From the NCBI GenBank assembly GCA_937873715.1, contig CALMYJ010000012.1, positions 1 through 64,000 on the forward strand: a stretch of DNA of 64,000 nt, written 5' to 3'. A program made the translations under genes and the position numbers. The stretch comes from an uncultured Chitinophagaceae bacterium (GTDB lineage: Bacteria; Bacteroidota; Bacteroidia; Chitinophagales; Chitinophagaceae). Shown here one piece after another: positions 21,430-27,130 of the stretch. The notes under the pieces are model-generated. The model worked only from the letters and a program-made list of their open reading frames with translations, did not search any database and was not told the DNA's origin. The first letter of the stretch is position 1. The number at the start of each line of letters is the position of its first letter.

Positions 21430-24400
21430 CTATCCTTTTTTTAGTACGTTAACTTTGATTATAGCATTATTCACCTCAATTTCGAGGCCGTTGTCTAAAA
21501 CGGGGAAAAAAGCAAGCGAATCTGCCAGAATTTCGGCGCAAATATAATCTTTATATCCAATTAATGAAGGCAGCACTTCTTTATTTTCAAGCACCTCTAC
21601 ATTTATCCTGTCGGTAAGTGCAAAGCCATTGTCTTTCCGAATATTTTGTACCTTATTTACAAACTCCCTGGCCATGCCTTCATGCACCAGCTCAGGGGTA
21701 AGGGTGATATCCAGTGCAGCAGTAAGGGCGCCGCGGCTGGCCACTTCGTATCCGGGTATTGCATCTGTGGCTACTTCTATATCTTCGGCACTAATGATGA
21801 TTGGCTCCTCGCCTGTTGCCTGGTGCCCGGGGTTAAGCAGGTACCCGGCTTCCAGCACTTTATCGATGGTAGCATTGTCAAAAGCAGCAATGGTATCGGC
21901 GGCCCATTTCATTTTTGGGCCCAGTTTTTTGCCCAGTGTTTTAAAATTAGCCTTGGCTTTTTTGCGGATAAAATCGTTGTCGGCTGCCAAAACCTCCACT
22001 TCTTTGATATTGGTTTCTGCCTTAATGATTTCCTCTACCTGCCTGAGGCGCTCTATCATACCGGCATCCAGTGCAGGTACAGATACTTTTTGAAGCGGCT
22101 GCCGCACTTTGATATTTACTTTTTTTCGAACAGATAAAATGAGGGAGCAAATATCCTGTGCTAATTGCATCCTTTTTTCCAGTTCGGCATCAATCACTCC
22201 TGTATCAGCTTTAGGGTAACCCAGGTGGTGGATGCTTGATGCACCTGCTTTACCGGTAACGGAACTAAGGTTGCGATAAAGGGCATCGGTAAAAAATGGC
22301 GAAATGGGTGCCATAAGGGTAAGCACTTTTTCGAGGCACTCATAAAGGGTTTGATAAGCGCTGATTTTATCCTTTTCGTATTCTCCTTTCCAAAAGCGAC
22401 GACGACAGAGGCGTACATACCAGTTGCTCAGGTGTTCATCTACAAATTCCTCTATAGCCCGGCCGGCCTGTGTAGGCTCGTACTGATCAAAATAGGCGGT
22501 AACCCTTTCAATTAATGTATTAAGAGAAGATAAAATCCAGCGGTCCATCTCGGGCCTTTCTCTTACCGGGATATAGGCTTCGCTAAAGCTGAATTTGTCT
22601 ACATTGGCATAAAGGGCAAAAAACTGGTAAGTATTAAACAGTGTGCCAAAAATTTTGCGCTGCACTTCTTTTATACCTTCTTCATCAAACTTAAGGCTAT
22701 CCCAGGGGGAGGCATTGGTGATAAGGTACCAACGGGTGGCATCGGCGCCATATTTATTTATAGTGGCAAAGGGGTCTACCACATTGCCAAGGCGTTTGCT
22801 CATTTTGTTGCCGTTTTTATCCAGCACCAGGCCGTTGCTCACCACAGTTTTGTACGCAACGCTGTCGAATAAGAGTACGGCCAGCACATGCAGGGTATAA
22901 AACCAGCCCCGGGTTTGGTCCACCCCTTCGCAGATGAAATCGGCCGGAAAATTTTGCCGGAAAATCTCCTCATTTTCAAATGGGTAATGCCATTGGGCAT
23001 AGGGCATGGCACCACTGTCGAACCACACATCCACCAGGTCGGGCACCCTTTTCATCGGTTTGCCCGAATCACTCACCAGTGTTATTTCATCTACATACGG
23101 CTTGTGTAAATCCAGTATGCCTTCGTGCAGGTAATGTTTATTGGTTTCGCCACCCAACGCAGTGGCGGCTTTTTTTATTTCGGCATTTAATTCGGCAATG
23201 CTGCCAATACATTTTTCTTCTTCGCCATCTTCGGTACGCCAGATGGGTAAGGGTGTACCCCAGTAGCGGCTGCGGCTCAGGTTCCAGTCCACCATATTTT
23301 CGAGCCAGTTGCCAAAGCGGCCGGTGCCGGTGTTGGCTGGTTTCCAGTTGATGGTTTTATTTAATTCTACCATCCGATCTTTAGCGGCAGTGGTTTTTAC
23401 AAACCAGGCATCTAATGGATAATAAATGATGGGTTTATCGGTACGCCAGCAGTGGGGATAGTTGTGTTCGTATTTTTCTTTTTTGAAGAGTTTGCCTTCT
23501 TCCTGTAGCTTAAGAACAATACGGTCGTCGACACTGAGGTATTTTTTCAGTTCTTTTATTTTGCCGTTGGCTTCCAGTATTGTTTTTTGCTTATTGAATT
23601 CAGCTTCTTTTTCTTCGTTACCCAGGTAATCTTCCTTCACATATTCGTTGCCATACAGGAAGATGCCATCTTTTACGCCTTCTAAAAAACGGCCCCGCCT
23701 GTCTACCAGTGTTAGTATACCGAGGTTGTTTTTTTTGCCCACTTTAAAGTCATCAGCGCCAAAGGCGGGGGCGGTGTGTACTATGCCGGTACCATCTTCG
23801 GTGGTTACAAAATCGCCGGTAATTACTTTAAAAGGCGCTGCGCCGGAGGTAATTTCCAGTATTTGCTGCAGCGTATTGGCATCAAAGGGAAGCAGTTGTT
23901 CGTATTGGATACCATCAATGGCCGATCCTTTAAATTCGGTCAATATTTTCCAGGGCGTTATTTTATCACCGGCTGTATAACTTTTAAAATCCCCGTTTTC
24001 GCCTTCCGGCTTAAAATATTTGCCCAGCAAATTTTTAGCAAGAATCACCGTATTGGGGGCATGAGTATAGGGATTAAATGTTTTTACCAGCACATAATCA
24101 ATATTTGCGCCAATTGTCAACCCCAGGTTGGAGGGAAGTGTCCAGGGAGTGGTCGTCCACGCTAAAAAGAAAACCTCATCACTGCCGGCAGCATCAAATA
24201 AAAACTTGCTTTTTTCATTTTTAACGGCTTTAAACATCGCCACGGCACTGGTATCCTTTACATCCCTGTAAGTGCCCGGCTGGTTCAGTTCGTGTGAGCT
24301 AAGGCCGGTACCGGCAGCAGGCGAATAGGGCTGTATGCTTACACTTTCGTACAGGTAGCCTTTTTTATATAATTCACTCAGCACCCACCACAGCGACTCA

Positions 24401-24873
24401 ACATAGTTGTTTTCAAATGTGATATAGGGGTCATCCAAATCTACCCAGTATCCCATTTTACGGGTAATATCGTCCCATTTGTCTTTGAATTTCAGCACTT
24501 CCCGGCGACAGGTGGCATTGTACTCCTCTACAGATATTTTTTTGCCGATATCTTCTTTGGTAATGCCCAGCAGTTTTTCCACACCCAATTCCACTGGCAA
24601 ACCGTGGGTATCCCAGCCGCCTTTACGCTTTACCTGGTAACCCTGCATGGTTTTATAACGGCACACCAAATCTTTAAGCGTACGGGAAATAACATGGTGT
24701 ATGCCCGGCATACCATTGGCACTGGGAGGCCCTTCGTAAAATACAAAAGGGGGCTGCCCTTCCCGAATTTTAACACTTTTTTCAAAGGCTTTTTCCGCTT
24801 CCCACAATGCTAACACTTCCTGCCCTATTGCTGGTAAGTTAAGCTGTTGATACTCTTTGTATACTGCTGACAT
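21430..24873 (-). CDS. ileS: Isoleucyl-tRNA synthetase
   Basis: 1147-residue class Ia synthetase that charges tRNA-Ile and edits valine. The start is placed at MSAVYKEYQQLNL because the 20 upstream in-frame residues are not family-like. The HIGH region reads PPSANGMPGIHH, the usual Bacteroidota variant. Editing-domain sequence (TTPWTLPSNLGL, EDGTGIVHTAPAFG) and the KMSKR loop (NGNKMSKRLGNVVDP) are intact, followed by the anticodon-binding domain and a long C-terminal extension (DUF5915-like). This is the large, eukaryote-like type. It is the first gene of a two-gene operon with the DksA-like gene. Confidence 0.97.
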   Translation of the reverse strand: MSAVYKEYQQLNLPAIGQEVLALWEAEKAFEKSVKIREGQPPFVFYEGPPSANGMPGIHHVISRTLKDLVCRYKTMQGYQVKRKGGWDTHGLPVELGVEKLLGITKEDIGKKISVEEYNATCRREVLKFKDKWDDITRKMGYWVDLDDPYITFENNYVESLWWVLSELYKKGYLYESVSIQPYSPAAGTGLSSHELNQPGTYRDVKDTSAVAMFKAVKNEKSKFLFDAAGSDEVFFLAWTTTPWTLPSNLGLTIGANIDYVLVKTFNPYTHAPNTVILAKNLLGKYFKPEGENGDFKSYTAGDKITPWKILTEFKGSAIDGIQYEQLLPFDANTLQQILEITSGAAPFKVITGDFVTTEDGTGIVHTAPAFGADDFKVGKKNNLGILTLVDRRGRFLEGVKDGIFLYGNEYVKEDYLGNEEKEAEFNKQKTILEANGKIKELKKYLSVDDRIVLKLQEEGKLFKKEKYEHNYPHCWRTDKPIIYYPLDAWFVKTTAAKDRMVELNKTINWKPANTGTGRFGNWLENMVDWNLSRSRYWGTPLPIWRTEDGEEEKCIGSIAELNAEIKKAATALGGETNKHYLHEGILDLHKPYVDEITLVSDSGKPMKRVPDLVDVWFDSGAMPYAQWHYPFENEEIFRQNFPADFICEGVDQTRGWFYTLHVLAVLLFDSVAYKTVVSNGLVLDKNGNKMSKRLGNVVDPFATINKYGADATRWYLITNASPWDSLKFDEEGIKEVQRKIFGTLFNTYQFFALYANVDKFSFSEAYIPVRERPEMDRWILSSLNTLIERVTAYFDQYEPTQAGRAIEEFVDEHLSNWYVRLCRRRFWKGEYEKDKISAYQTLYECLEKVLTLMAPISPFFTDALYRNLSSVTGKAGASSIHHLGYPKADTGVIDAELEKRMQLAQDICSLILSVRKKVNIKVRQPLQKVSVPALDAGMIERLRQVEEIIKAETNIKEVEVLAADNDFIRKKAKANFKTLGKKLGPKMKWAADTIAAFDNATIDKVLEAGYLLNPGHQATGEEPIIISAEDIEVATDAIPGYEVASRGALTAALDITLTPELVHEGMAREFVNKVQNIRKDNGFALTDRINVEVLENKEVLPSLIGYKDYICAEILADSLAFFPVLDNGLEIEVNNAIIKVNVLKKG

Positions 24874-25159
24874 TGTCGATATTATAATACTGGTAAAATG
24901 TGGGCAAAGGTAGTAAAATACCCCTGCAGGCAAAGGGGCAAAATATTGTTGTTTAATGCTTTTACCACAAGGGCACCAGGTTTTTCCACATACTGGAATT
25001 TTGGCATAGTATTGGTAAATAATTTAAATGAACAACGTACTAAGAAAGCAGATTTATTCTGTTTCCGATACTAATTCAATATCCAGGATTAAGCATTTGA
25101 TCCCCTGAGGTTTAGCTAATGTTTTGGGGTAAAATTTATACATCCTAAGAATGATCCGT

Positions 25160-25213
25160 CTGCATAAACGGCCGTTCATCATAAAATTGAGCAAGTTCGC
25201 ACCGTTTATGCAG
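25160..25213 (+). repeat. 12-bp inverted repeat in the ileS-glyS gap
   Basis: Arms ctgcataaacgg and ccgtttatgcag, perfect reverse complements, separated by 30 bases and followed by catttttt. It could form an RNA hairpin. The palindrome aacggccgtt overlaps the left arm. Confidence 0.8.
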
Positions 25214-25288
25214 CATTTTTTGAAATTGGAGTATCTTCGACATACAACCTAAAGATTTTTTGCTGGTTTAGGGTTTTATTAGGGTAAA

Positions 25289-25322
25289 GACGGAAGTATT
25301 CCTACTTCCGTCATTTTTTTTC
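25289..25322 (+). terminator. Strong plus-strand terminator without an upstream coding gene
   Basis: Ten-base-pair perfect stem gacggaagta / tacttccgtc, four-base loop TTCC, then A and nine T residues. No plus-strand coding gene lies within several kilobases upstream, so it most likely ends a non-coding RNA. Confidence 0.85.
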
Positions 25323-25463
25323 GAGGCCCTCTCCCGTTTTTAATTTCCATATCCGGCACCGGCAACAATGAACAGGAAACTGTTCGGTTTTAACAAACCT
25401 TCCAAACGAAAAAATCATCAGCCCCTGGAAAATGAAGTATGACACTGCGGTAGTGCAGGGCAT

Positions 25464-25497
25464 AAAAAAAGCGGCATCTTTTACAGGATGCCGCTTT
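25464..25497 (-). terminator. Rho-independent terminator of glyS
   Basis: Stem aaagcggcatc / gatgccgcttt with a short loop and, on the minus strand, a T-run; 21 bases after the glyS stop. Confidence 0.9.
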
Positions 25498-25518
25498 ATA
25501 TTTTATACCATTTGAAGA

Positions 25519-26997
25519 TTAACTGATTTTTTCCTGAACAATCCGCTTCACCTCTGCCAACAAAATTCTTTCCTGCACCATAGTATCCCGGTAACGGATG
25601 GTTACAGTACCATCTTCCTTGGTTTGCTGATCGATGGTTACACAAAAAGGGGTGCCAATTGCATCCATACGGCGGTAGCGCTTGCCAATAGTATCTTTCT
25701 CTTCGTAAAAACAATGGAACGATTCCCTGCATTCGGCCACCAACGCCTGGGCAATTTCGGGCAGGCCGTCTTTTTTCACCAGCGGCAATACCGCCAGTTT
25801 GGTGGGGGCAATTTTGGCCGGAATTTTTAATACGGCCCGGCTGTCTTCCGTTCCATCTTCTTTGGTCCATTTCTCCTCGGCATAACTCAGGCTCAGGATA
25901 GTAAGTACCAGCCTGTCGAGCCCCACCGAGGTTTCCACCACATAGGGAATATAATTGCCATAAGGCTTGCCAGTGGCAGGGTCAACATCATTATCAAAGT
26001 ACTGCATCTTCTTTTTGCTGTACAACTGGTGATTTTTTAAATCAAAGTCTGTGCGGCTGTGTATGCCTTCAAGTTCCTTCCAGCCAAATGGAAATTCAAA
26101 TTCAATATCCAAAGCAGCATCGGCATAATGCGCCAGCTTTACATGATTGTGAAAACGCAGTTTGCCGGCAGGTATACCCAGGCTTTCGTGCCATTTTTTG
26201 CGTGCCTCTTTCCAATAGTTGTACCATTCCATTTGTGTACCGGGACGGATGAAAAACTGCATTTCCATCTGCTCAAATTCCCTCATACGAAAAATGAACT
26301 GGCGGGCTACAATTTCGTTGCGAAATGCCTTACCGGTTTGTGCAATACCAAAGGGTATTTTCATCCTGCCGGTTTTTTGCACATTTAAAAAATTGACAAA
26401 AATGCCCTGTGCGGTTTCCGGCCGCAGATACACCATATTCTCATCCGGATTTTCGGATGCCACAGCGCCAAATTCGGTTTTAAACATCAGGTTGAACTGG
26501 CGCACATCCGTCCAATTGCAGGTTTTGCTGATGGGGCATTGTATTTTATAGTCTTCAATTAATTTTTTCAAACCCGGATAATCAGCAGTAGCATCAAGCG
26601 CCTCCATTTGAGCAAGCATTAGTTCCGCTTCTTTTTCTCCTTCAGGGCCCTTTGCCTTAAGCAGGTCGGCGTGGCCTTCTATCAAATGATCCACCCGGTA
26701 GCGCTTTTTGCTGTCCTTGTTGTCTATCATTGGGTCGCTGAAATTATCCACATGGCCGCTGGCCTTCCAGGTGGTGGGGTGCATAAATATTGCCGCATCA
26801 ATACCCACAATATTATCATGCATCTGGGTCATAGCTTTCCACCAATTATCCCTGATATTCTTTTTAAGCTGTGCCCCATTTTGGCCATAATCGTATACAG
26901 CAGCCAGCCCGTCATATATTTCGCTCGACTGAAAAATATACCCGTATTCCTTGCAGTGTGCAATCAGTTCCTGAAAATTGTATTGTTCGTTTGCCAT
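25519..26997 (-). CDS. glyS: Glycyl-tRNA synthetase (dimeric class II type)
   Basis: 492-residue alpha2-type class IIc synthetase that attaches glycine to tRNA-Gly. The start is MANEQYNFQELIAHCKEYG; the upstream 20 in-frame residues are not conserved. Class II motif 2 (AFRNEIVARQFIFRMREFEQMEM) and motif 3 (ETSVGLDRLVLTIL) are clear, as is GLAAVYDYG at the N-terminus and a C-terminal anticodon-binding domain (LVKKDGLPEIA to the end). Length matches the bacterial/eukaryotic GRS1 type found in Bacteroidota. It is a single-gene unit with its own terminator. Confidence 0.97.
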   Translation of the reverse strand: MANEQYNFQELIAHCKEYGYIFQSSEIYDGLAAVYDYGQNGAQLKKNIRDNWWKAMTQMHDNIVGIDAAIFMHPTTWKASGHVDNFSDPMIDNKDSKKRYRVDHLIEGHADLLKAKGPEGEKEAELMLAQMEALDATADYPGLKKLIEDYKIQCPISKTCNWTDVRQFNLMFKTEFGAVASENPDENMVYLRPETAQGIFVNFLNVQKTGRMKIPFGIAQTGKAFRNEIVARQFIFRMREFEQMEMQFFIRPGTQMEWYNYWKEARKKWHESLGIPAGKLRFHNHVKLAHYADAALDIEFEFPFGWKELEGIHSRTDFDLKNHQLYSKKKMQYFDNDVDPATGKPYGNYIPYVVETSVGLDRLVLTILSLSYAEEKWTKEDGTEDSRAVLKIPAKIAPTKLAVLPLVKKDGLPEIAQALVAECRESFHCFYEEKDTIGKRYRRMDAIGTPFCVTIDQQTKEDGTVTIRYRDTMVQERILLAEVKRIVQEKIS

Positions 26998-27130
26998 AGG
27001 CGGCAAAAATAAGGCAGGGAGGGGATTTTTAAAGTTGGGCACAAAAAAGATTTGCAACTACCGGTTGAGTAAGTCACCATCACCAGGCAAGCTGCATCAA
27101 TTTGTACCCCCCTTGTTTACACCTGCACTT

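Follow-up and report, generated by a model that had tools for sequence, protein, structure and literature searches.

In the window, a stretch of 64,000 nucleotides from the genome of an uncultured Chitinophagaceae bacterium, the upstream end of ileS at 24873 and the stop codon of glyS at 25519 enclose a gap which holds a terminator of the plus strand (Table 1). This terminator had been described in an initial annotation as an orphan surrounded by minus-strand ileS and glyS, which terminator, ORF and profile searches bear out. Only one plus-strand ORF of at least 50 aa starts in the gap, encoding 58 aa and ending at 25074, and none of that length in the window runs into the terminator at 25289-25312 or into the core, a conserved sequence immediately before it. 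No common reading frame through the core was seen by eye across loci, and a short peptide encoded there was set aside. A tRNA and tmRNA search of the window found none. A terminator-like site of glyS (25497-25468, minus strand) scores on both strands and is the source of several weak Rfam matches.

Table 1. Features of the ileS-glyS interval, in window coordinates
Feature	Position	Strand	Remarks
ileS	21430..24873	-	divergent neighbour, synteny anchor; NCBIfam TIGR00392, 1022 bits
sigma54-like -24/-12 motif TTTGGCATAGTATTGGT	25000..25016	+	about 250 bp upstream of the core; conserved
variable leader of the inferred RNA	25027..25253	+	about 227 nt; much shorter in many relatives
12-bp perfect inverted repeat CTGCATAAACGG / CCGTTTATGCAG	25160-25171 with 25202-25213	+	in the leader
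core with two UUAGGG boxes, GCTGGTTTAGGGTTTTATTAGGGTAAA	25262..25288	+	directly 5' of the terminator hairpin; nearly invariant
terminator hairpin GACGGAAGTATTCCTACTTCCGTC	25289..25312, A + T8 tail to 25321	+	10 pairs, loop of 4
second conserved motif CCGTTTTTAATTTCC / CCGYTTTWAAWYC	25334..25348		beyond the terminator
glyS	25519..27057	-	convergent neighbour in the source genome; NF003211, 631 bits

The initial annotation had proposed a small non-coding RNA ending at this terminator, possibly 6S-like, and had stressed the inverted repeat upstream of it. The repeat is real and longer than chance here, since 200 approximate dinucleotide shuffles of 25027-25285 yielded repeats of 10 bp at most. 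It is, however, not the conserved element: same-genus matches leave it and most of the leader uncovered, and it was dropped as a functional part because it sits where these matches are absent. The 6S identity did not survive either. In the covariance search which that annotation had suggested, no match to an Rfam family attained the gathering score, either in the window or in eight related loci tested, the 14 weak matches within 24850-25540 at E up to 10 include none to 6S, and 6S-Flavo (RF01685) has no match anywhere in the genome at E<=10. The locus is like 6S RNA and 6S-Flavo as a bacterial intergenic RNA, but the conserved long closed stem with a central bubble is absent, the conserved part being a short core and a 10-bp terminator.

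Folding of 25035-25325 gave z-scores of -2.14 on the plus and -3.00 on the minus strand, so the strand is not chosen by folding energy. Over 68 loci, the mean unpaired probability of the core was 0.40 with the leader and 0.59 without it; the core was not predicted to be free in these foldings, and a conserved pairing of leader and core was unsupported (mean z +0.38).

Conserved 3' end and upstream promoter-like motif

The whole gap was used as a DNA query against 59 genomes, 35 of them of the same genus, and strong matches (E 2e-21 to 3e-6) were obtained in 25 of the 35, the conserved stretch spanning approximately 25250-25322 and once reaching 25354. Conservation in relatives, proposed earlier as a check, is thus present, core and hairpin being kept in these 25 genomes. 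The 23-mer GCTGGTTTAGGGTTTTATTAGGG, which represents the first 23 bases of the core, is exact in 21 of the 25 loci and differs by 1-3 edits in the other four, and ileS lies in the fetched flank of 23. The core is single-copy in the source genome, and its carriers include the non-metagenome genomes of Ferruginibacter paludis CECT 8366 and Ferruginibacter sp. HRS2-29. A scan with TGGTTTARGGTTTTATTARGG, using one genome per species, returned 52 stretches; together with the window these make 53 loci, 47 of which have ileS divergent at 175-944 nt, while two of the remaining six (L057 and L091) carry the core elsewhere, with similar neighbours. Three forms of the core were recognised, F (GCTGGTTTAGGGTTTTATTAGGGTAAA), C (CTACGGTTTAGGGTTTAGGGGTTAAA) and N (CCAGGGTTTAGGGATTAGGGATCGA), all of which retain GGUUUAGGG and a second UUAGGG, with different spacing between the boxes. 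Two boxes are found in 81 of 81 ileS-linked loci against none of 66 other terminators of the same loci, the count being circular where loci had been retrieved with a pattern or model; likewise, the conservation of the core is owed partly to the choice of loci through the scan pattern and the covariance models. As judged from these comparisons, the conserved unit is the 3' end, composed of core and terminator hairpin, and not the 12-bp inverted repeat.

The region is rich in terminator-like sites, with 28 found between 20 and 30 kb against 14.0 in shuffles, and the hairpin alone is therefore weak evidence. Its covariation was examined in 50 aligned sequences, in which 99.6% of the cells are paired and 9 of the 10 pairs have two-sided changes; none of 500 shuffles reached the observed pairing, and slid versions dropped to 40-56%. 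Across genera, 98.2% of the cells are paired, again with two-sided changes at 9 of the 10 pairs. Compensatory changes in homologous regions, on which the initial annotation had made its RNA depend in part, are hence seen. An A.C cell corresponds to a G.U pair of the opposite strand, and on the plus strand G.U outnumber A.C cells by 43 to 0 in the 50-sequence alignment (A1) and by 40 to 3 in a wider one (A3). As G.U pairs occur almost only on the plus strand, it is the plus-strand RNA in which the pairing is kept and which is under selection; terminator function alone would account for this bias too, and the core goes beyond a terminator. The loop is mostly NUCH, e.g. GTCT, TTCC or TTCT. In other genera, many of the plus-strand tails behind the hairpin contain interruptions, and the C form has a T5 after the hairpin on the minus strand as well. 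Beyond the terminator, the motif at 25334-25348 recurs in 36 of 80 ileS-linked loci, with 0.3 expected per shuffled set, and may serve as a site for a regulator or belong to a longer RNA.

The promoter-like motif was assessed in 81 distinct loci, after duplicates and loci lacking an ileS in divergent orientation within 1300 nt had been removed. Scored with TTTGGCAYARTNTNTGR, a consensus derived from the same loci, the best site upstream of the core agreed at 13-15 of 15 informative positions in 62 loci and at 11-12 in 19, whereas mononucleotide shuffles mostly gave 10 of 15 and at least 13 in 2 of 410. At 25002-25007, the window has TGGCAT as its -24 GG element (TGGCAY). Among the 81 loci, the 62 best have an invariant GGCA and an invariant -12 G, and this G stands at the canonical sigma54 spacing; the C expected after it is not invariant, the next base being A in 21, G in 20, C in 12 and T in 9, and a canonical GC is absent. 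Given this -12 region and the invariant positions in the spacer, another regulator is possible; the motif reads as a -24 element of the sigma54 type whose -12 is degenerate. It precedes the core by 72-299 nt in loci without an intervening ORF. From the sigma54 spacing, we infer a transcription start near 25027, 12 nt past the -12 G, and the resulting predicted length of about 290 nt fits the 150-300 nt guessed in the initial annotation. The source genome encodes one RpoN (PF04552, 182 bits) and contains five occurrences of the strict motif against none in the control; one site besides the ileS-linked one is intergenic, 72 nt before a gene resembling those of secreted proteins. Control of the RNA by sigma54 is, on this basis, likely.

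Taken from core, covarying hairpin, G.U bias and promoter-like motif, the part of the initial annotation which stands is the non-coding plus-strand RNA ending at the terminator, and it is very probable that such an RNA is produced from this interval.

Occurrence in other genera, in a 3' UTR and in phages

In other genera of the family, a variant core GGTTTAGGGTTTAGGGGTT is found with TTTGGCAYARTTTNTG upstream and ileS divergent. With a first covariance model (50 sequences), matches at E<=0.01 were obtained in 141 of 394 family genomes, weak terminator-like ones included, while the second model, R2 (45 sequences), matched 49 of 195 family genomes and 27 of 101 genera at E<=1e-5. No R2 match at this threshold was obtained in the other 146 of the 195, so that either the family has a patchy distribution or members of it escape the model. 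The core was located in 56 of 63 further loci (L112-L174), seven being lost, and 35 of these 56 have a divergent ileS within the fetched stretch; as far as sequence and gene order can tell, the arrangement divergent from ileS recurs in other Chitinophagaceae genera. A search at class level (395 genomes) produced 10 matches at E<=1e-4, of which the two strong ones are the source genome and another genome of the same family (G087); the other eight are weak (33-41 bits) and read for the most part as ordinary terminators, and were not accepted as homologues outside the family.

Several loci depart from this arrangement. In genus g102, three loci (L156, L160 and L161) contain an RNA candidate of about 50 nt with two AGGG boxes and a hairpin. 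This related core and hairpin lie directly behind a sigma54-like motif, between two conserved genes, and two of the three have a near-canonical TTGGCACGGACTTTGTA; by their sequence, these loci couple such RNAs to sigma54-like promoters a second time. Four others (L162, L166, L167 and L169) have a core-like AAGGGTTTAGGGTTGAAAA or TAGGGTTTAGGGTTGAAAA with a hairpin, and neither ileS nor a sigma54-like motif nearby. Locus L117 carries tandem copies of core and hairpin at 1501 and 1719, within about 290 nt, upstream of genes which by eye resemble those of ribosomal proteins. Two loci from two genera of family f25 (L182 and L186), which are among the eight weak class-level matches, have TGGTTTAGTTTGTTAGGTT in common, placed before a terminator and upstream of what, again by eye, looks like a tRNA nucleotidyltransferase gene; they represent a possible distant, parallel RNA.

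At 15 loci of the Ferruginibacter type, promoter and core are separated by a gene of about 150 aa, and core and terminator thus form its 3' UTR. The similarity of its product to PepSY_like (PF11396) is weak, with E values of 3.2e-6 to 0.05 in three members, all under the curated cut-off. Its stop codon precedes TGGTTTA by 8-10 nt in 12 of the 14 readable loci and by 28 and 38 nt in the other two, whereas no ORF leads into the core at the window locus. A long open frame between promoter and core is absent from L093. PepSY queries against the short loci gave nothing below E 0.6 (limit 1), and a loss of the PepSY-like ORF in the lineage of the window was set aside, no remnant having been found. 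In a rough tree of ileS (78 rows, 253 columns, bootstrap not settled), all 13 long-form rows fall in one half of 35 rows, where they are mixed with short ones (8 label changes), and the other 43 rows are without the long form. The stand-alone form is the sole form seen in other genera, and is probably older than the PepSY-like one.

Exact cores are also found on viral contigs just before hairpins unlike those of the host, in the F form on L201 and L202 and in the C form on L203, L204 and L212, which indicates that the core is mobile without its hairpin. Close to the core of L202 lies the gene of an Erf-like ssDNA annealing protein (phrog_155, 3.7e-33), L204 gave a match to a phage-type regulator, and the tested proteins of L201 and L203 had no PHROG match. 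In the INPHARED phage records, the C-form core was not matched beyond chance. Genome G014 has a second core copy (L086) besides its ileS-linked F-form copy. Eight viral contigs (L205-L211 and L213) carry instead a perfect complement of 20 nt of the C-form core, TAACCCCTAAACCCTAAACC. CCCTAAA repeats also precede a few host genes (L216 and L218), and the phage complements may be a leader of the repeat type rather than a target.

Candidate function of the RNA and alternative explanations

What can be read from the sequence comprises the core, the covariation of the hairpin, the strand, the synteny, the promoter-like motif, the 3' UTR form and the phage copies; from these we infer the use of sigma54, the action in trans and the RRM partner. 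The explanation preferred here, held at slightly better than even for the whole, is an sRNA made through sigma54 whose 3' module binds an RRM-domain partner in trans. RNA polymerase with sigma54 (RpoN) and an enhancer-binding activator would start near 25027 and transcribe the plus strand away from ileS up to the terminator at 25312-25321, yielding an RNA of about 290 nt here and approximately 100-330 nt in relatives. Its working part would be the last 60 nt, in which the core with its two UUAGGG boxes is held directly 5' of the hairpin and would act in trans by binding a conserved partner; for the trans-acting 3' module taken by itself, confidence is moderate. The favoured partner is an RRM-domain RNA-binding protein of Bacteroidota; the RNA, produced while sigma54 is active, would be its ligand or sponge. 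In some relatives the same module doubles as the 3' UTR of a PepSY-like mRNA, and it is found in phages as well. Twin UAGGG boxes, with flexible spacing and kept across genera and in phages, fit a protein partner, and eukaryotic RRMs such as hnRNP A1 favour UAGGG. The source genome encodes four RRM_1 proteins, and no Hfq over the cut-off. PMC12119571, citing Adams 2021, reports that RbpB of B. thetaiotaomicron binds GUAGGAUA with a KD of 5.1 uM, a site which has UAGG alone in common with the core boxes. The modest unpaired probabilities predicted for the core also speak against such a partner. The assignment to an RRM protein in particular is accordingly tentative.

Binding by base pairing, in which the core would be a seed that blocks translation on mRNA leaders, as in FopS and GibS of Bacteroides, is rather improbable. 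The layout of FopS, with a single-stranded 5' part followed by the terminator according to PMC11697453, is matched by the conserved sequence 5' of the terminator here, and on the eight viral contigs an ATG follows the exact complement of the C-form core after 1-23 nt at all 11 sites, in about five phage gene families; the CCCTAAA repeats are nevertheless of low complexity. Complements in the own genome do not support a contiguous seed and left a long antisense target there unsupported: for 15 bases and at most 2 mismatches, 4+4 were counted, including the RNA gene as one of them, while the reversed control gave 9+8. Among 20 C-form hosts, at most 1 mismatch being allowed, support was slight, with 25 non-self matches (five of them overlapping steps of one repeat) against 13 in the control, and five of the 20 stretches, together holding all 25, had an ORF start within 160 nt. 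The box spacing, which differs between the forms, suits separate boxes over one contiguous seed.

The core and hairpin might otherwise act in cis, as a stability or localisation tag which protects or marks the 3' end of any transcript carrying it, with the stand-alone form as a decayed mRNA. Such a role would account for the position of the core in the 3' UTR of the PepSY-like gene, at a nearly fixed distance from the stop codon, and before terminators in phages; it is quite unlikely, since other genera show the stand-alone form alone, the empty PepSY queries make a decayed mRNA unlikely, and the promoter-like motif is retained without any ORF. Least probable is a DNA element which insulates ileS by means of binding sites and a bidirectional terminator, the core having no function as RNA. 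The constant position divergent from ileS and the T-run which follows the C-form hairpin on the minus strand too would suit it, but the G.U pairs are almost confined to the plus strand, the core never changes sides relative to the hairpin, and copies are found away from ileS in phages and, within the genus, at L057 and L091.

The RNA bound by a protein partner might also take part in an arms race, a speculative and doubtful extension in which the core would be a host-specific tag. The sigma54-controlled RNA would bind its conserved partner via the two UUAGGG boxes, phages would copy the exact core form onto their transcript ends, ahead of unrelated terminators, in order to use or drain this partner, and the host RNA may also silence genes of other phages, which have perfect complements of the core at their translation starts.

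Relation to known RNAs and significance

FopS and GibS (RF04319 and RF04182), which are bound by the RRM protein RbpB, are likewise RNAs of Bacteroidota with a conserved stretch ahead of an intrinsic terminator, and make an RRM protein a plausible partner here. One FopS member is derived from a 3' UTR, according to PMC11697453, and is in this respect similar to the PepSY-like form. They differ in the core and in the promoter, sigma-ABfr as opposed to the sigma54-like motif; the synteny with ileS and the single genomic copy are also unlike FopS and GibS, and their covariance models gave no match at the core and only weak ones, below the gathering score, on the terminator region of glyS. RNAs of the CsrB/RsmY type sponge a protein through GGA in hairpin loops. 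The repeated short boxes could similarly titrate an RNA-binding protein, but here there are two boxes only, these are UUAGGG, and the partner is a candidate only. Small RNAs derived from 3' UTRs are known in Gammaproteobacteria, and at the 15 loci of relatives the core likewise belongs to the 3' end of an mRNA and shares its terminator; the difference is that here a stand-alone form with its own promoter is widespread and the coding gene looks like an addition.

A literature search found no description of a regulatory RNA from Chitinophagaceae, and the sRNA gene next to ileS probably marks a new RNA regulator. On the sequence evidence it represents a new sRNA family, unusual in that one 3' module is common to a stand-alone RNA, an mRNA tail and phages. 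The synteny of this RNA is fixed and its promoter class testable, and there are a candidate protein partner and carriers other than metagenomes. The shared 3' module lets one ask how sRNA genes and 3' UTRs interconvert, and also raises the question of why phages keep a host RNA sequence.
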